This document shows positions 10,536-19,494 of a stretch of 64,000 bases of DNA, in pieces. The notes beneath the pieces are model-generated. The model ran no database searches. It was given only the letters and a program-made list of their open reading frames with translations, and was not told the origin of the DNA. Source of the stretch: Acidobacteriota bacterium (lineage in GTDB: Bacteria > Acidobacteriota > Terriglobia > Bryobacterales > Bryobacteraceae); assembly GCA_017307505.1 (NCBI GenBank), contig JAFKEE010000044.1, positions 1-64,000 of the forward strand. Direction: 5' to 3'. How positions within the stretch are numbered: the stretch's first letter is position 1; every line of letters begins with the position of its first letter. The position numbers were made by a program, and so were the translations under genes.

Positions 10536-13244
10536 ATGGGACGCGGTTTGATCCTGGCCCTGATCCTGGTTGTGCTGCTCGGCGGCCGATGGGTGGCGGG
10601 GTTTGCGATCGAGTATGAGTGGTGGCACGAGATGGGCCAGGTGGAAACCTGGATCCAGATGCTGAGTTATGGCTCGGTGCCCGTCATCGGTGCGGCCTTG
10701 CTGGCATTTTTGACGTTCTGGATCGCCCATGCGCGAGGCATGAAGCATGCGGGCACGGGCCTGAGAGAGCATCCAGGCTATGCCAAGCTGGCGACCTTCG
10801 TTGCCCTGCTGCTGGGCATTCTGGTGGCCGTGTCGACGGTGGATTCCTGGACAGTAGTGCGCTGGTTCGGCGGGCATGGACTCGACTCCGGCACATGGCG
10901 CGATCCGGTCTTCGGCCATCCGCTGTCCTTCTACTTCTTCGATCTTCCATTCCTGGGCGTCATCCTCCGCTATCTGTTGACCGTTACCGTGGTGGCGGCG
11001 CTGGCGCATTGGCTGACGGCGCGCGGCTGGAGCCTGAAGGACCAGTTGCCGGAATGGAATCCGCAGGAGGGCATCCGGGTTGACCTGGGTGGCTTCAGCC
11101 TCAGTGGCGCAATGGACTCCGGTTTCCTGCGGGGTGTTGCCGCCTTCTTCCTTCTGGCCTGGGCCGGGAAGTTCTACCTTGACCGCTATGACCTGCTGCT
11201 GGATGACCACGGGTCGCTTGTCGGCGTGGATTGGGTGGCCGAGAATCTGACGTTGCCCCTTCTGTGGCTCAACATCGGGGGCGCCCTGCTTGCCGCAGCG
11301 GGCATTCTGATGCGGAAGCCGAAGACGCTGATCCTGCTGGTGGTGACGTACATCGTGATGGCAGTGACGCCCATGCTGGTGACGGCCGTATATGTCCGGC
11401 CGAGCGAGATCACGATCCAGAAGCCATACATCAAGCGTCATATCGAAGCCACGCGATCGGCCTACGGACTCGGTGCACATATCAAGGAAACGGACTATGC
11501 CGCGAAGCTGGAGGCGCCCATCGATGTCTCCAAACACCGGCAACTGCTGGACAATGTCCGGTTGTGGGATTGGCGGGCCTTTCATGACACGGTGACGCAG
11601 ATCCAGGCGCTGCGGCCTTATTACGTGTTCCACGACAGCGACGTGGATCGCTACCAAATCGATGGGCAGTTGCGGCAGGTGCTGGTGACTCCGCGTGAGA
11701 TCGACGTGAGCCAACTGCCCGGGGATGCCCGATCGCGCTGGATCAATCCGCATTTCATCTATACGCACGGCTACGGAATGGTGGTGGCGGAGGCGGCCCG
11801 GATCACGAAAGAGGGTTTACCCCTGCTGCTGGTGCAGGATGCTCCGGCCGTGGTGAAGACGCCCTCGTTGAAACTGACCCGGCCCGAGTTGTACTACGGC
11901 GAGGTCTCGCACGAACCGGTATTCGTTCACACGCAGCAACCGGAATTCAATTACCCCTCGGGCGCAGGCAATGTGGAGACCCGCTACGAGGGCAAGGGAG
12001 GCTTCCCCATCTCATCTCTCCCGATGAGAATGGCGGCAGCTCTTTCGACAGGCGATTGGAACATCCTGCTCACGTCCTATCTGGCCCCGGAAAGCCGGAT
12101 GATGATCCGGCGCAAGGTGCGCGACCGGCTCGAGGCGATGGCCGGCTTCGTCGTCTGGGATGCCGATCCATACCTGGTGATCACCAAGGCAGGCCGACTC
12201 ATGTGGATGGTGGACGGCTATACGACGAGTGACGCGCATCCGTACGCGAAGATGTTCAATCTGGGCGATGTGGGCCGGGTCAACTACATCCGCAACTCGG
12301 TGAAGGCGACGGTGGATGCCTATGACGGCAGTGTGAGCCTCTATGCGTTTGGGGATCGCGATCCGCTGCTGGCGTCATACCAACACCTCTTCCCGAAACT
12401 GTTCAAACCCTGGTCCGACATGCCGGACGAATTGAAGGCACACGCACGGTATCCGGAACTGATCTTCCGGCTGCAGGCGGAGGTGTACCGCACCTACCAC
12501 ATGACGAATCCGGAGGCCTTCTTCAATAAAGAAGATCAATGGGACATCGCCAGGAATCTGAACGGGCCTTCCGGCAAGCCGGAACCGGTGTCTCCTACGT
12601 ACGTCGTGGCCACCCTGCCGGGCAGCGATGAGCCGGAATTCCTTTTGATGACCACATTCACACCGAGGAACAAGGACAACCTGATCGGTGTGATGGTGGC
12701 CCGGTGTGACGGCGCGGCGTTGGGCGAGGTGCAGTTCCTTCAGCTGTCGAAGCAGGAGCTGATCTTCGGACCGATGCAGATTGAAGCACGGATCAGCCAG
12801 GATCAGAACATCTCCAAGGACCTCAGTTTGTGGAACCAGCAGGGCTCCCAGGTGTTGAGGGGGCAGATGCTGGTGCTGCCCGTAGAGAATACGATGTTGT
12901 ACATCGAACCCATCTACATTCAGGCCTCCGAGGCCAGGATGCCTCAACTGAAGAAGGTTGTCGTGGCGATGGGCAACCGGCTAATCTATTCAGACACCTA
13001 CGAACAGGCACTGAGTGAGCTGACCGGGACAGCCATCCCGAGCGGCCAGGGGAAAGGGCAAGTCACCTCAACTGAAGCGGGCAAGCCAGCTGCGGAAAGC
13101 GGCGCGGCGCAGGACGCGGCCTCAAGGCTGAAAGATGAGATCCAATCGCGTCTGAAGCGCTATAAGGAATTGATGTCACAAGGCCAGTTCGCGGAGGCAG
13201 GCAAAGAAATCGAGGCACTGGACCGGCTGGCCAAACAGAGATAG
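10536..13244 (+). CDS. UPF0182 family multi-pass membrane protein
   Basis: A 902-residue protein. The first ~330 residues hold about seven membrane segments and the rest is a large soluble domain typical of UPF0182 (COG1615), with the stretch HFIYTHGYGMVVA characteristic of the family. The last ~70 residues are Ala/Gln/Lys-rich and end in a predicted helix (SRLKDEIQSRLKRYKELM). The start is well supported: GAGGAGG lies 7 bases before the ATG. The family is widespread in actinobacteria, cyanobacteria and acidobacteria and has no established function. The receiver gene downstream is on the same strand 71 bases away and could be cotranscribed. Confidence 0.9.
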   Translation: MGRGLILALILVVLLGGRWVAGFAIEYEWWHEMGQVETWIQMLSYGSVPVIGAALLAFLTFWIAHARGMKHAGTGLREHPGYAKLATFVALLLGILVAVSTVDSWTVVRWFGGHGLDSGTWRDPVFGHPLSFYFFDLPFLGVILRYLLTVTVVAALAHWLTARGWSLKDQLPEWNPQEGIRVDLGGFSLSGAMDSGFLRGVAAFFLLAWAGKFYLDRYDLLLDDHGSLVGVDWVAENLTLPLLWLNIGGALLAAAGILMRKPKTLILLVVTYIVMAVTPMLVTAVYVRPSEITIQKPYIKRHIEATRSAYGLGAHIKETDYAAKLEAPIDVSKHRQLLDNVRLWDWRAFHDTVTQIQALRPYYVFHDSDVDRYQIDGQLRQVLVTPREIDVSQLPGDARSRWINPHFIYTHGYGMVVAEAARITKEGLPLLLVQDAPAVVKTPSLKLTRPELYYGEVSHEPVFVHTQQPEFNYPSGAGNVETRYEGKGGFPISSLPMRMAAALSTGDWNILLTSYLAPESRMMIRRKVRDRLEAMAGFVVWDADPYLVITKAGRLMWMVDGYTTSDAHPYAKMFNLGDVGRVNYIRNSVKATVDAYDGSVSLYAFGDRDPLLASYQHLFPKLFKPWSDMPDELKAHARYPELIFRLQAEVYRTYHMTNPEAFFNKEDQWDIARNLNGPSGKPEPVSPTYVVATLPGSDEPEFLLMTTFTPRNKDNLIGVMVARCDGAALGEVQFLQLSKQELIFGPMQIEARISQDQNISKDLSLWNQQGSQVLRGQMLVLPVENTMLYIEPIYIQASEARMPQLKKVVVAMGNRLIYSDTYEQALSELTGTAIPSGQGKGQVTSTEAGKPAAESGAAQDAASRLKDEIQSRLKRYKELMSQGQFAEAGKEIEALDRLAKQR

Positions 13245-13777: not shown

Positions 13778-16700
13778 TTAGCTGTTTGCAGCCTGACGGC
13801 CAAAACGGCGGGAGACGCCCGTGAGATTGCGCCGGTTCCGGCGTGTTTCGAGCATCTGTTCGCGGGCATTTTCAACGGCATGGACGATGGGCTGCGTCTG
13901 CGATTCAGAAGCGCCCCAACTGAAGATGATCGAGACGGAGCCAAGGGAGCGCAACTGGTAATCCCAGAGCCGCTCCGAAACCAGCTGAATGCGGCGCTTC
14001 GCGGCCGAGCCGTTCTCCCGGGCGAAAATGAGGATGAACTCGTCTTCCGCGATCCGGCAGGCGAAATCCTGCTCGCGGGTGAGAGACATGACCAGCCGCG
14101 TCACCGAGCCCATGATCTGCTCGATGGCAGGCTTGCCCTGATCGGCCATGAGACGGACGTAGTCGACCACGCTGACTGCGATGACGAGACCCGAGAAGGG
14201 CGCCTCGTCCTCCAACAATCGAGCCAGGGCTGTGGGCTCGTGGAATCCACCGGGCAGTTCCAGAGTGGGCGGGGCCGGCGGTTCCTGTTCGGCACGGACC
14301 TGCGCGGCGGAGCGCATTTCCACAACCTTGGGCCGCATCTCGCTCTGCGGGATGACAGGAGCAGGGGTTTCGACAACCGGCTCGGGTTCAGCAGGCCTGT
14401 AGGAGAACGGGTCGTCGGCAGCGGCCTGGCCTGACGGGGCTGCACTTGCGAACACCGGCTCACTCTCGGTGAAGACGGCGTCGGTGAACGCAGGTTCGGG
14501 CCTGGTATCTTCCTGCTGGAGATCCCAGGTGGAAGGTTCTTCGCTGGTATCCCAAATGGCAGTCTGGTAACCCGTCTCGACCGGAGCGGAGATCAGGGAG
14601 GCTGCTTCAGCGACGGGCGGCTCGGCTTCGAGTTGTGACTCGGGCCAGGTTGCGGCCGTCAATTCGGCGGTGACAGGTTCCGCTTCCACGACCTGCTCGG
14701 GCCAGGACACCGCCACAGGCTCGGCCATCACCGTTTCGGCTTCCGCCACCGGCTCTGTCCAGGTGGAGGCCGTCAACGCGGCAACCAACGGAGCAATCTC
14801 TACGGTGGGCTCAGGACTGGTCACAGCCATGATCTCCGCCGATACAGGCTCTGATTCGACTGTATGCCCGGCTTCCACCACAGGCTCAGGCCAAGTTGCA
14901 GCCATCATTTCGGCGGCTGCCGGCTCGGGCTCCGCTACCGGTTCGGACCACACTGAAACTACCAGCTCAGCGGTGACCGGCTCAGATTCGATCAGGGGTT
15001 CAGCACAGATGCCGGACGTCAACTCGGCGACCAGAGGCTCGGCCTCTGTGGCCGGCTCAACCGGGATCTCAGCGATCATCTCGGGGACGGCCTGCTCCGG
15101 CTCGGCGACCGGCTCGGGTTGCTGTTCGGCCACTATCGGAGCGACCTCTGGCTCAACTTCGTCCGTGAATTGAGAGTAGGAGGAGGCGGAGTGTTCGCCC
15201 AGGGAGACCGCCGTGTCTGTGAATTCCGACACTGGCAGAACGTCGTCGTCCCGGAGAACTCGAATCCGCACCACGTGGATCTCTTCCTCGACACCCGACT
15301 CAACAATGGTGGGCTCGAAGTGCGACACGAGCGCGTCCTCCGCCACGAGCTCGGCAGGCGTTTCGGCTACTGGCTCGACAACCGGAGGCTCTTCCGCTTC
15401 GACACGCGAAAGCGTGGGGATCTCCGCGTAGACCGGCATGTCCTCGATGAGGGAATAGTCGGCGGTGAACGAGGCCTCCACCAGTTCCCCGGTAGCAGCA
15501 ATCTCCGGAACCAGAGCTTCGACAGTCTCCTGAACGGGCGACTCCAGCACCTCGGCAACTTCAACCGTTTGTGGAACTTCCTCGATCGCTTCGGCGATGG
15601 CTGTCTCCGGAACCAGAGCCTCGACAGGCTCCTGAACCGGCGACTCCAACACCTCGGCAACTTCAACCGTTTGCGGAACTTCCTCGATCGCCTCGGCGAT
15701 AGCGGCTTCCGGAACCAGGGCCTCGACAGGCTCCTGAACCTGCGACTCCAACACCTCGGCAACTTCAACCGTTTGCGGAACTTCCTCGATCGCCTCGGCG
15801 ATGGCGGCTTCCGGAACCAGGGCCTCGACAGGCTCCTGAACCGGCGACTCCGATACCTCGGCAACCTCAACCGTTTGCGGCACTGCTTCGATCGCCTCGG
15901 CGATGGCGGCTTCCGGAACGAGAGCCTCGACAGACTCCTGAACCGGCGACTCCAACACCTCGGCTACCTCAACAGGCTGCGGAACTTCCTCGATCGCTTC
16001 GGCGATGGCGGCTTCCGGAACCAGGGCCTCGACAGGCTCTTGAACCGGCGACTCCAACACCTCGGCAACTTCAACCGTCTGCGGAACTTCCTCGATCGCT
16101 TCGGCGACGGCTGTCTCCGCAACCAGAGCCTCGACAGGCTCCTGAACCGGCGACTCCAGCACTTCGGCTGCTTCGAAAGCCGACTCGACGAGGGGCGTTT
16201 CGAGCGTTGCAGTTTCCAGCGGCAGGTCTTCCGCGGCGGCAACCATGAGAGGCAGAGACTCGGCACTGGGCACCTCCAGGGTGGCCAAGGGCTCGACCGT
16301 CTGTGCAAACTGCTCAACGGAGGGCGGAACGATCTCGTACTCCGGCACTTCGGTATGAAGGCGGAGGGCTGGGAGAGAGGACTCTGTCTCGGCCGCGAGC
16401 AAATCCGCCGGCAGGCTGGCCATTTCGGCCGCGAGAGCCGAAGGACCGGCCAAACCAAGGGAAAGCTCGGTTGCCTGAGACAATTGACAGACAGGGGCGG
16501 GCTGCTGGACGGCCGGCAGCACGGACTCCGCCACAACTTCGGCGGACTGAAGCGAACCAACGACCGCCACCACGGGCTGTGCGAGCGGCGGCGGAGCGGC
16601 CAACTGCTGCGCTTCCACCATGGCCAGCGCCGCTTCGGATTCCTGTTTCGTATGCGCCCGGACCGCAACCTGTTCGCCGGCTTCAGGCGATTCGAGATGG

Positions 16701-17524
16701 GTGTACTCAGGCACTGCCTGGACAGGCGGGGTCGCGACGGGAGCCTGCTCCAGCGGCTGGGCGGGAGCCATCGGCACCTCGGCCGAAACTGATGCCAGGG
16801 CCGGGGTAGCGGACGGCAGGCCAATCTCCTCCGGCTGGGCAGTGAATTCCTGTTGCGTCGACTGGGCGGCGGGCACCGCAATGGCCAGCGGAGCGGGCTC
16901 GACAGGGACCGGTGGAGCATCCGGCACGGTTTCGACGATGGGGGTGATCGCGTCGGCCGGCACGGTCTCGCTCACCGGCACGGTTTCGGCAACAGGCACG
17001 TTCTCCACCGGACTGACGGGCTCGGCCACGGGCGCCTTGGCCGGCTCGACGTCCTGATGCTTGCGAATGACGATGTCCTGCGCCCAGCTCGCCACGGATT
17101 CCTCGCGAGGTTTGGCGGTGGCGCGTTCTTCCGAGCGGCGGCCACGGCGGCCGCGGGCAGAGCGTTCGGCCTGGGCGCGCTCGAAGAGTTCCCGGGCGTC
17201 GGTGATTGGGGTGACCAGCGGGGCTGGTTCAGCGGCAGGCTGTTGCTGGGTGCGGGCCGCAGCCTGAGCAGCCGGCACCGGCGCGGACACCGGGCGGCCC
17301 ACCAGAGCGCCCTGCACTTTGGCCACAACTTCGATGGTCTGCTGCTGGACCTTCTCGACAAGATCGTCACGCTTGTCGCGCTCATCCTCGCGAACACGCA
17401 TGACAATGTTGGCTTCCCGAAGCTGCTCATTGCTGCCCTTCAGGAAATCACAGATCAGCGCGACGAAGGCGGCCCCGAGAATAACTACCAGGCTGACGAA
17501 AACCTGGATTTCTATTGCGCCCAT
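13778..17524 (-). CDS. Membrane-anchored giant repeat protein with degenerate GGDEF domain
   Basis: A 1248-residue protein in four parts. Residues ~5-27 are one membrane helix, followed by a basic/acidic coiled region (~30-75), so the rest should be cytoplasmic. Residues ~110-1060 are a Glu/Pro/Ala/Val-rich, probably disordered linker holding two repeat arrays. Residues ~1085-1248 have the GGDEF fold, but the signature reads AEDEF (1159-1163), which should abolish diguanylate cyclase activity. Just before it, REQD (1150-1153) and a five-residue gap reproduce the RxxD-x5-GGDEF spacing of the c-di-GMP inhibitory site of PleD-type cyclases. It therefore looks like a c-di-GMP receptor rather than an enzyme; this is inference. 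AGGG lies 8 bases before the ATG. No similar architecture is known to me. Confidence 0.75.
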   Translation of the reverse strand: MGAIEIQVFVSLVVILGAAFVALICDFLKGSNEQLREANIVMRVREDERDKRDDLVEKVQQQTIEVVAKVQGALVGRPVSAPVPAAQAAARTQQQPAAEPAPLVTPITDARELFERAQAERSARGRRGRRSEERATAKPREESVASWAQDIVIRKHQDVEPAKAPVAEPVSPVENVPVAETVPVSETVPADAITPIVETVPDAPPVPVEPAPLAIAVPAAQSTQQEFTAQPEEIGLPSATPALASVSAEVPMAPAQPLEQAPVATPPVQAVPEYTHLESPEAGEQVAVRAHTKQESEAALAMVEAQQLAAPPPLAQPVVAVVGSLQSAEVVAESVLPAVQQPAPVCQLSQATELSLGLAGPSALAAEMASLPADLLAAETESSLPALRLHTEVPEYEIVPPSVEQFAQTVEPLATLEVPSAESLPLMVAAAEDLPLETATLETPLVESAFEAAEVLESPVQEPVEALVAETAVAEAIEEVPQTVEVAEVLESPVQEPVEALVPEAAIAEAIEEVPQPVEVAEVLESPVQESVEALVPEAAIAEAIEAVPQTVEVAEVSESPVQEPVEALVPEAAIAEAIEEVPQTVEVAEVLESQVQEPVEALVPEAAIAEAIEEVPQTVEVAEVLESPVQEPVEALVPETAIAEAIEEVPQTVEVAEVLESPVQETVEALVPEIAATGELVEASFTADYSLIEDMPVYAEIPTLSRVEAEEPPVVEPVAETPAELVAEDALVSHFEPTIVESGVEEEIHVVRIRVLRDDDVLPVSEFTDTAVSLGEHSASSYSQFTDEVEPEVAPIVAEQQPEPVAEPEQAVPEMIAEIPVEPATEAEPLVAELTSGICAEPLIESEPVTAELVVSVWSEPVAEPEPAAAEMMAATWPEPVVEAGHTVESEPVSAEIMAVTSPEPTVEIAPLVAALTASTWTEPVAEAETVMAEPVAVSWPEQVVEAEPVTAELTAATWPESQLEAEPPVAEAASLISAPVETGYQTAIWDTSEEPSTWDLQQEDTRPEPAFTDAVFTESEPVFASAAPSGQAAADDPFSYRPAEPEPVVETPAPVIPQSEMRPKVVEMRSAAQVRAEQEPPAPPTLELPGGFHEPTALARLLEDEAPFSGLVIAVSVVDYVRLMADQGKPAIEQIMGSVTRLVMSLTREQDFACRIAEDEFILIFARENGSAAKRRIQLVSERLWDYQLRSLGSVSIIFSWGASESQTQPIVHAVENAREQMLETRRNRRNLTGVSRRFGRQAANS
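14590..15120 (-). repeat. Imperfect ~20-residue coding repeats
   Basis: Within the linker of the degenerate-GGDEF protein, a degenerate unit resembling WPEPVVEAEPVTAELTAAT recurs about eight times between residues ~800 and ~980. Copies vary in length and sequence, so this array looks older than the neighbouring 34-residue array. Confidence 0.65.
15480..16174 (-). repeat. 102-bp coding tandem repeat, six full units and a partial seventh
   Basis: The encoded 34-residue unit begins EVAEVLESPVQEPVEALVPE and ends AIEEVPQTV. It repeats in frame, and units differ by only one to five residues. Near-identity at the DNA level means copy number could change by slippage or recombination without breaking the frame. 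Confidence 0.92.
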
Positions 17525-17735: not shown

Positions 17736-18530
17736 TCAATTTGCCGGATACGGACGCCGGGAAAGGCCACCCGGAGAGGACGAAGAAGGACGCGCGGGCG
17801 GCGGCATCACCTGGGGTCCGCCGACCCTGGGCGGAGCGATGCCCGCAAGCTCTTCGTCTGTGAACTTGAGGCTTCTGTCGATGACCATCTCGATGGTCGA
17901 ACCGCGTTCGATGATCGCATCGGGGCCGCGAGTCATCAGGATACCGGCAAGTCCGGCGGCGGCTCCCGCGGCCGCACCAATCCCGGCGCCCGTGCCTGTG
18001 CGGGTGGCGACTCCGCCGATCATCGTGCCCCAGCCGGCCGCTTCTCCCACCTTGGTGGCATCCGCGGCCTTGGACCCGTCACCCTCGACTTTGCCTTCCG
18101 TCCGGTCCACTTTGCCCGGATTTGAGCCGTCTACGGTGCCCAGGGAAGCACGAAAGTCGCGGGTCACGCCATTGGGCAGCGTGAGAGAATCGAAGCGAAC
18201 GTACAATTCAGCACGGCCCTTCACCTTACCTGCCCGTTTTACCTGAGTTACGGTGCCGGTGACATAAGAGCCCGGGGGGATGACGATGCGCGCATCCGAA
18301 AGAATGGGGAAATTCGTCTGAAGGTAAACCCGATCGCCCACGGCCGCGGACTTCGTACTGATGCTGTTGATCAACTGGAGCGGAATCTTGCTGCCGGACG
18401 CGACGGTGTACACTTTCTGATCGCCCGCAGCCTGGGCGTTTTGCGCGGCCGGCCAGCCGGCTTGGCCGGAGGGCTGGGCGAACAAAGCCAGAGCAAACAA
18501 TGGGGTGATGCAGACAGCTCGGATGTGCAC
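17736..18530 (-). CDS. Exported VirB10/TrbI-like protein with glycine-zipper segment
   Basis: A 264-residue protein with a signal peptide. Residues ~40-140 resemble the TrbI/VirB10 beta-barrel domain (a SGSKIPLQLINSI strand, then an IPPGSYVTGTVTQV strand). Residues ~160-205 are Gly/Ala-rich with GxxxG spacing, like glycine-zipper membrane segments, and the C-terminus is Pro/Ser-rich. I set the start at the GTG at 18530 because AGGGAG lies 6 bases before it; the ATG at 18548 would place that site inside the gene. No other type IV secretion genes are nearby, so a stand-alone envelope role is likelier than conjugation. Function unknown. Confidence 0.7.
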   Translation of the reverse strand: MHIRAVCITPLFALALFAQPSGQAGWPAAQNAQAAGDQKVYTVASGSKIPLQLINSISTKSAAVGDRVYLQTNFPILSDARIVIPPGSYVTGTVTQVKRAGKVKGRAELYVRFDSLTLPNGVTRDFRASLGTVDGSNPGKVDRTEGKVEGDGSKAADATKVGEAAGWGTMIGGVATRTGTGAGIGAAAGAAAGLAGILMTRGPDAIIERGSTIEMVIDRSLKFTDEELAGIAPPRVGGPQVMPPPARPSSSSPGGLSRRPYPAN

Positions 18531-18654
18531 GATGTGCTCCCTATTCATAGACTAACCCCAAGGCTGAGGTTTGGGACGGGTTTTTCCACACTGAAACCGC
18601 ATGAATCGGCTTGACCTACCCTGCGCGACAGTGAAGCGCCCGCGGTGGTCGGAC

Positions 18655-19494
18655 TCATTTGGTTGAACGTAATGGTGGGGCATCCGGTTGCGGCGGGGTC
18701 GGTTCCAGCCTGAGTCGGATGCCGGATTCGGTCACGGTTCCAGCGAGATCCACGAGTAGTTCAGGGTTGGCGCCCAGTTCACCGGGGAGCAGCACTTCGA
18801 TTTCGTAAACACCGGGGAAACCTGGACTTAGTCCAACATAGCCGATCCGCTCCGAGGGCACTTCCACACCATCGATCAGAAGGTGAAGGTTGCCGAGCCC
18901 GGCCAAAGGCACCCGCTCGCGTGGAAACTCGCGAAAGCCAAGGATGGGCCGCGTATCCCCCAGACCGGCGGCGTAGAGAATGACGGATTCACCAGGGCGC
19001 GCCGGATGCGCCTGGTCCACCCATTCCATCGAACCGGAGTGGCGTGCAAGCACGAAGCCCGTTTCCATGAGGAACCAGGCAGGGGCGGCGGGCGCCAGTT
19101 GAACTCGAATGGTGGGGCCGCTCAACAGATTGTGGGCCAGGATAATGCTGACCGTGCCCGGCCGCAGTTCGGAGGGAACCAGAAAGATGACGACCTCTGG
19201 AGAGATGTACTCCACCGGGGCCAGCAGGCCGCCCACTTTTACCATCACGCCGGTTCCGGAAAGCTGGTAAGGAAGCGTATTGCCCCGCAAATCGCTTTCG
19301 ACGCGGGCCCGGGCGTAAGGAGCCAGATCTTTACCGTAAATCGCGGCCAGGGTGTTGGGAGCGAGGCGGCCACGTTCCCCGCTTGCCAGGTTGACGATGC
19401 TGTCTGCAGAGTAGGACGGCGCCTGTCTCTGGGTTTGACTGCCGGCGGTGAGGGCAAACGCCAGGCAGGCCAGCGCCGTTGCGGTAAGGCGCAT
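18655..19494 (-). CDS. Exported TIGR03437-like Solibacter-type protein
   Basis: A 279-residue protein with a signal peptide (MRLTATALACLAFALTAGSQ). The remainder matches the pattern of the TIGR03437 domain, usually found at the C-terminus of large Solibacter extracellular proteins: an ASGERGRLAPNTLAAIYG start, a PVEYISPEVVIFLVP centre, a VILYAAGLGDTRP stretch and a GLSPGFPGVYEIEVLLP end. Here the domain makes up nearly the whole protein. The role of the domain is unknown. It follows mutY on the same strand after 74 bases. Confidence 0.75.
   Translation of the reverse strand: MRLTATALACLAFALTAGSQTQRQAPSYSADSIVNLASGERGRLAPNTLAAIYGKDLAPYARARVESDLRGNTLPYQLSGTGVMVKVGGLLAPVEYISPEVVIFLVPSELRPGTVSIILAHNLLSGPTIRVQLAPAAPAWFLMETGFVLARHSGSMEWVDQAHPARPGESVILYAAGLGDTRPILGFREFPRERVPLAGLGNLHLLIDGVEVPSERIGYVGLSPGFPGVYEIEVLLPGELGANPELLVDLAGTVTESGIRLRLEPTPPQPDAPPLRSTK

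Follow-up and report, generated by a model that had tools for sequence, protein, structure and literature searches.

A membrane-tethered pseudo-GGDEF protein with a length-variable acidic linker in Bryobacteraceae

In a 64,000-nt stretch of the genome of an Acidobacteriota bacterium (Bryobacteraceae; assembly GCA_017307505.1, contig JAFKEE010000044.1, positions 1-64,000; hereafter the window), we analyzed an ATG-initiated gene on the reverse strand (13778..17524) whose open frame and Pfam match define a tethered pseudo-GGDEF protein of 1248 amino acids. With slightly better than even confidence, we regard it as a membrane-anchored pseudo-diguanylate cyclase turned tethered, non-catalytic adaptor, for which partner binding would be the job shared across the family and cyclic diguanosine monophosphate (c-di-GMP) a possible input in those lineages that keep the inhibitory site (I-site). 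The overall plan recognized in the first-pass annotation, namely a membrane helix, an acidic, proline-rich, repetitive linker and a GGDEF fold, was borne out. The protein starts with a single N-terminal helix (approximately residues 7-25; 17450..17506, reverse strand, as are all parts of the protein given below), judged by eye in a segment conserved across the family, followed by a charged juxtamembrane segment (residues 26-51; 17372..17449) with D26, K29, and R36 present in 42/42 members, a linker of approximately 1030 residues, and a C-terminal GGDEF-type domain. The long frame is not an assembly artefact, because the congeneric genomes G145 (2 contigs) and G100 (3 contigs) carry the same gene in the same place, encoding 1007 and 994 amino acids, respectively.

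Of 60 loci fetched for family comparisons, 54 have a head match; the 42 of these 54 that pass the N-terminal pattern are termed members. The other 12 are either GG-intact (L082, L085, L088, L091, L095, L099) or have an N-terminus that lacks the pattern or lies outside the frame (L048, L053, L069, L079, L083, L098). The sets of 63 non-redundant members and 68 non-redundant heads were de-duplicated by the last 120 residues, with L140 (cut at a contig end) left out and the congeners G616-G619 outside the sets.

The C-terminal head (residues 1091-1235; 13820..14254) is assigned to the GGDEF fold by Pfam, by an AlphaFold2 (AF2) model and by structural matches. GGDEF (PF00990, residues 1112-1233) is the sole Pfam family to exceed its cut-off in the head, scoring 24.1 bits in the whole protein and 28.8 bits in the head alone against a curated cut-off of 23.8; the whole-protein score is therefore only marginally over the threshold, and some relatives fall under it (e.g., L106 with 22.9). 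The AF2 model, built from 52 aligned heads, is a confident GGDEF fold (mean predicted local distance difference test score, pLDDT, 89.8; predicted template modelling score, pTM, 0.81), and among the matches listed the best Protein Data Bank (PDB) entries are GGDEF domains, such as SadC, DosC, and PleD, with c-di-GMP-bound PleD (2wb4) found at E 1.4e-4. Catalytic function appears to be lost: the signature is AEDEF (residues 1159-1163; 14036..14050), as read from the sequence and by comparison with the family, and S1118, V1123, and M1126 replace the Asp, Lys, and Asn of GG-intact relatives, positions which we take, from PleD, to serve metal and substrate binding. Of 41 pseudo heads, one keeps the metal Asp, one the Lys, none the Asn, and one both glycines, and the Asp and Glu of the "DEF" part are retained in 35/41 and 31/41, respectively. 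With the metal ligand, substrate residues, and GG pair gone, the head is predicted to be a pseudoenzyme.

The pseudo heads have a single origin on a tree of 70 GGDEF domains, in which all 41 form one clade with a support of 100/100, nested within a larger clade that holds 22 GG-intact relatives, with seven canonical GGDEF domains of the window genome outside it. The pseudo rows of this tree comprise 36/42 members plus L053, L079, L083, L098, and L191, near-copies being left out (L041, L042, L047, L063, L080, L086), and seven of the eight other GGDEF proteins of the window genome were included, L179 having given no match. Among the nearest intact relatives is L082 (genome G066), a 220-residue orthologue at the same locus, beside the same TrbI-like gene, with intact motifs (REQD..RWGGDEF), a Pfam GGDEF score of 115.8 bits, and a linker of only approximately 15 residues. 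Among 20,514 sequences, its juxtamembrane segment scores E 6e-6 against the family N-terminal profile, with the next non-family sequence at approximately 0.1 or worse. When L082 was searched against 237 genomes of the family, relatives were found in 48 (E 1e-30), and all other matches start at query residue 12 or later. The pseudo form occurs in 51/150 genomes (N-terminus at E 1e-3 or a head match; 47 by N-terminus, including G092 without a head match, and G034, G086, G137, and G140 by head) and the intact subfamily (E 1e-30) in 44/150, with an overlap of 0 versus approximately 15 expected; at the genus level, the figures are 24/76 and 26/76, with an overlap of 0 versus approximately 8 expected, although shared ancestry inflates both exclusion numbers. 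This mutual exclusion is consistent with a single ancestral gene that met two different fates.

The pseudo clade has newly fixed residues in the head. The helix signature SERLWDYQLR (residues 1183-1192; 13949..13978), generalized as E..LW..QLR, contains W1187 in 68/68 pseudo heads versus 1/22 GG-intact relatives, and Q1190 in 67/68 heads. The newly fixed P1091, F1154, E1184, W1187, Q1190, and L1191 are found in 0, 2, 1, 1, 4, and 3 of the 22 intact relatives, respectively, while R1178 and R1192 are common to both groups. In seven ortholog pairs, the ratio of nonsynonymous to synonymous substitution rates (dN/dS) is 0.02-0.15 in the head and 0-0.14 in the first 60 residues, compared with 0.19-0.58 in the linker, where some synonymous rates exceed 2 and are saturated; the head and N-terminus are under strong purifying selection and the linker is loose.

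The I-site presents a different pattern. The window head carries REQD (residues 1150-1153; 14066..14077), and the gap of five residues between it and AEDEF is the exact I-site spacing, so that this part of the first-pass annotation is upheld by the sequence. In the AF2 model, REQD sits in a loop directly followed by the strand running into the AEDEF hairpin, a modelled location as expected for an I-site. R1185 is presumably the third I-site Arg, judging from the PleD sequence and from PelD spacing, so that the window protein combines RxxD at I-site spacing with a third basic residue (R1150, D1153, R1185). The ancestor of the pseudo heads very likely had an I-site, because RxxD is present in 22/22 GG-intact relatives. 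The motif is kept in 43/68 heads, 42 of which also have R or K at 1185, and the complete R-D-R triad in 19/68; RxxD has outlasted the GG motif (2/68). Nearest to the window, R1150-D1153-R1185 is kept in 7/8 distinct heads of the genus and its closest relatives (L040-L044, L100, L101, L103), the exception being L044 with Ser at 1185, while L045, from another genus and next on the tree, has lost the Arg (NSTD instead of RxxD). RxxD occurs in 21/42 members and 20/41 pseudo heads of the tree, with at least 10 changes within the pseudo rows and 11 overall. RxxD and a basic residue at 1185 may covary (Fisher p 0.003), but position 1177 performs better among the 16 columns compared and independent pairs are unsupportive. 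As RxxD has been lost in 25/68 heads and the helix signature is near-invariant, the I-site as the shared purpose of the family is not supported by these comparisons.

We therefore favor the adaptor reading given at the outset, under which a membrane diguanylate cyclase of this bacterial family, equipped with an I-site, would have lost catalysis once, as the tree and motifs suggest, and a flexible acidic linker would have grown between the membrane and juxtamembrane segment and the GGDEF head. By the positive-inside rule, the head would face the cytoplasm, with the anchor fixing the protein at the inner membrane. The head would bind a partner protein, the most likely contact site being the E..LW..QLR helix or its surroundings, and short linker motifs (VVRIRVL in the window) may dock further partners. 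In lineages with RxxD and R or K at 1185, among them the window genus, c-di-GMP at the I-site may modulate partner binding, while other lineages would have dropped this input. The input is plausible because the window genome encodes nine GGDEF matches (the window protein included), three EAL, and seven PilZ proteins.

Several points weigh against this adaptor reading. Both the partner and its binding to the head are postulated, and the invariant helix residues could reflect core packing and not an interface. The branch leading to the pseudo clade is long (1.35), so that the exact sister of the clade is unsure, L082 is the only syntenic intact copy seen, and the activity of the GG-intact relatives is presumed from their motifs. 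The gene is absent from the locus in four genomes of the genus g45 and so is not universal. Docking of a linker motif on the head itself was considered and rejected, as the model of L106 leaves the motif unstructured and off the head (pLDDT approximately 60).

A possible but rather doubtful alternative is that the protein is a dedicated c-di-GMP receptor, in which binding at REQD/R1185 would cause a conformational or dimerisation change that, as in PelD, is sensed by a partner or at the membrane. The triad at exact spacing in the window and most of its near relatives, the longer survival of RxxD than of GG, the frequent basic residue at 1185, and the other GGDEF, EAL, and PilZ proteins of the genome argue for it. 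On the other side are the repeated loss of RxxD (approximately 10-11 changes), the 18/25 RxxD-less heads that still have R or K at 1185, the lack of support for joint loss from independent pairs, and the possibility that D1153 persists for structural reasons. The earlier proposal that the head had lost synthesis and kept binding is thus supported in part: the catalytic residues are lost, and the window protein and most of its near relatives keep the triad, but across the family RxxD is missing from more than a third of the heads.

It is improbable that the protein acts mainly as a dominant regulator of cyclases, its dead head forming heterodimers with active GGDEF domains and either keeping them off the membrane or retaining them there, in the manner of CdgI. 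Strong GGDEF-GGDEF contacts are described for Escherichia coli CdgI and some other degenerate GGDEF domains (PMC5635695), and the window genome has eight other GGDEF matches; however, the closest GG-intact subfamily was found (E 1e-30) in 0/51 genomes with the pseudo form, which leaves the pseudo form without its nearest dimer partner. Still less probable is a membrane protein that is mainly structural or in decay, lacks a specific ligand, and has a functionless repeat expansion as its linker, a view which would accommodate the 14-fold variation in linker length, a repeat array present in the window and not in two close congeners, and the absence of the gene in g45, but runs against the low dN/dS of the head and N-terminus, the near-invariant residues across 68 heads, and the recurrence of linker motifs above shuffled levels.

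The linker (approximately residues 57-1090; 14255..17356), rich in Ala, Glu, Pro, and Val, is the longest among the 63 non-redundant members, whose linkers span 75-1034 residues (median 406) and are net acidic in 60/63. The suggestion that the linker serves to let the head reach far from the membrane is not sustained, as reach is not conserved. A repeat scan found 6.5 copies of a 34-residue (102-bp) tandem repeat (15504..16168); in the congeners L041 and L042, the arrays reported are of 57 or 114 bp, and none is of 102 bp. Superimposed on this variation are short motifs: HVVRIRVL (residues 750-757; 15254..15277 in the window) recurs in divergent members, with 21/63 carriers versus a mean of 0.9 (maximum 3) in 20 shuffles, and a motif resembling SGLLDDVIEASS or LL(D/E)xVIxAS is found in 21/63 members (L062, L078, L081, L135, and others) versus 0.45 in shuffles; the two groups of carriers do not overlap. 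The weaker motifs DARELFERAQAER (7/63; shuffles mean 1.15, maximum 3) and SWAQDIVIRK (10/63; mean 1.15, maximum 5) occur mostly in the group of the window itself. The four motif seeds were picked after a scan, and the shuffle counts ignore kinship. These data leave room for a tentative extension of the adaptor reading, in which a membrane enzyme that made c-di-GMP would have become, without leaving its locus, a non-catalytic tethered hub with a new fixed binding helix (E..LW..QLR), a length-variable linker bearing interchangeable docking motifs (VVRIRVL or LL(D/E)xVIxAS-like, by lineage), and the former product-inhibition site as a c-di-GMP switch in some lineages. In L048 (G009:C178), the anchor (310-aa frame) and the head (398-aa frame) are split by a frame break in the linker, which may be either an assembly error or decay.

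Receptors for c-di-GMP with a dead GGDEF domain are already known (CdgI, PelD, PopA), and it is the linker and the helix signature that are new in the window family. We take CdgI to have a multi-pass membrane sensor region and PopA a response-regulator architecture with no membrane tether, both unlike the window protein. ZipA has an N-terminal membrane helix, a long Pro-rich flexible linker, and a C-terminal cytoplasmic binding domain with FtsZ as its partner; the likeness is one of plan only, since binding domain and partner are unrelated, and no FtsZ-binding domain was found in the window head, whose only Pfam match above cut-off is GGDEF. Escherichia coli CdgI has an N-terminal domain common to the diguanylate cyclases DgcT and DgcX, a degenerate active site (A-site), and an intact I-site, like the window protein, and binds c-di-GMP as a purified protein; in the accessible part of that report, a long acidic linker or an LWDFQLR helix is not described for it (PMC5635695). 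PelD of Pseudomonas aeruginosa and Bacillus cereus has a degenerate GGDEF domain and binds c-di-GMP via RxxD and a third Arg (R367/D370/R402 in P. aeruginosa), with a D-to-R spacing of 32 residues in P. aeruginosa, equal to D1153-R1185, and 29 in B. cereus (PMC7112168). It differs in having a GAF domain and a pel operon, whereas the window protein has no Pfam GAF match and no pel-type gene among the seven neighbors scanned. Caulobacter crescentus PopA, a PleD paralogue with a dead A-site and RxxD like the window protein, binds c-di-GMP and directs CtrA to the pole (PMC12564702). The claim that no protein with this plan has been described was thus too strong for the core idea, considering CdgI and PelD, but no description of this family and no precedent for the very long linker was found in the searches made of open-licence papers, and searches for disordered-linker GGDEF proteins and for Bryobacter GGDEF yielded nothing relevant. 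The family offers a natural series for the transition from enzyme to signaling adaptor: the dead heads fall in one clade, an orthologue with intact motifs occupies the same locus, and the I-site is kept or lost by branch. Its orthologues, with such different linkers on one plan, allow one to ask whether tether length matters for a membrane-bound effector and whether the I-site outlives catalysis because it gates a partner.

The pseudo clade is confined, as far as searched, to the family of the window (Bryobacteraceae-like). The N-terminal segment is found in 47/150 sampled genomes of this family, which refutes an architecture unique to the window genome, and a class-wide N-terminal search matched 13/151 genomes, every one in the family. 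A head search gave matches in 100/150 family genomes, many of the weaker ones being other GG-intact cyclases (21 read). Beyond the window itself, a phylum-wide head search of 297 genomes, which included just two other genomes of the family, returned only weak matches (best 30.8 bits), and 52 loci turned up when 84,980 species genomes were scanned for the family signature. Their titles name Acidobacteria, Bryobacterales, Bryobacter, Paludibaculum, Solibacter, or similar groups, except for L114, labelled Acidimicrobiia, which we take as a mislabel. A wide spread in Acidobacteriota was therefore rejected, and in these searches the architecture was found within the family of the window. The conserved N-terminal segment also occurs in two short frames (G058:C542:438-590, 229 aa; G092:C339:4793-4945, 179 aa).

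The window gene has a TrbI-like gene on one side and a response regulator gene on the other. The upstream neighbor (17736..18548, reverse strand) is only weakly TrbI-like (21.5 bits, below the cut-off of 35), and such a gene stands immediately upstream in 33/42 members, two more having too little sequence; matches to this neighbor occur in 150/150 sampled family genomes, and the window genome has nine such matches. Next to it lies a protein with the TIGR03437 "Solibacter uncharacterized C-terminal domain" (18655-19494, reverse strand; 117.9 bits), and on the other side a UPF0182 protein of unknown function (10536-13244, forward strand; 718 bits), whose gene lies within 6 kb of the target, in convergent orientation, in 23/42 members. 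A response regulator gene lies within 600 bases in 9/42 members. The recurring order is UvrA, MutY, TIGR03437 protein, TrbI-like protein, target, (response regulator), and UPF0182, and the seven scanned neighbors include TrbI-like, response regulator, UPF0182, MutY-type, and transporter proteins. In three of the four g45 genomes, the TrbI-like gene adjoins the response regulator gene, and the g45 TrbI-like protein is the most similar one outside the window genus (65-72% identity). No Rfam family reached the gathering threshold anywhere in the window, and promoter and terminator scans gave signals no higher than the shuffle level. A 557-aa open frame (15119-16792, forward strand) runs antisense to the linker, whose repeats it mirrors; most likely it is a side effect of a coding strand that is repetitive and rich in GC.

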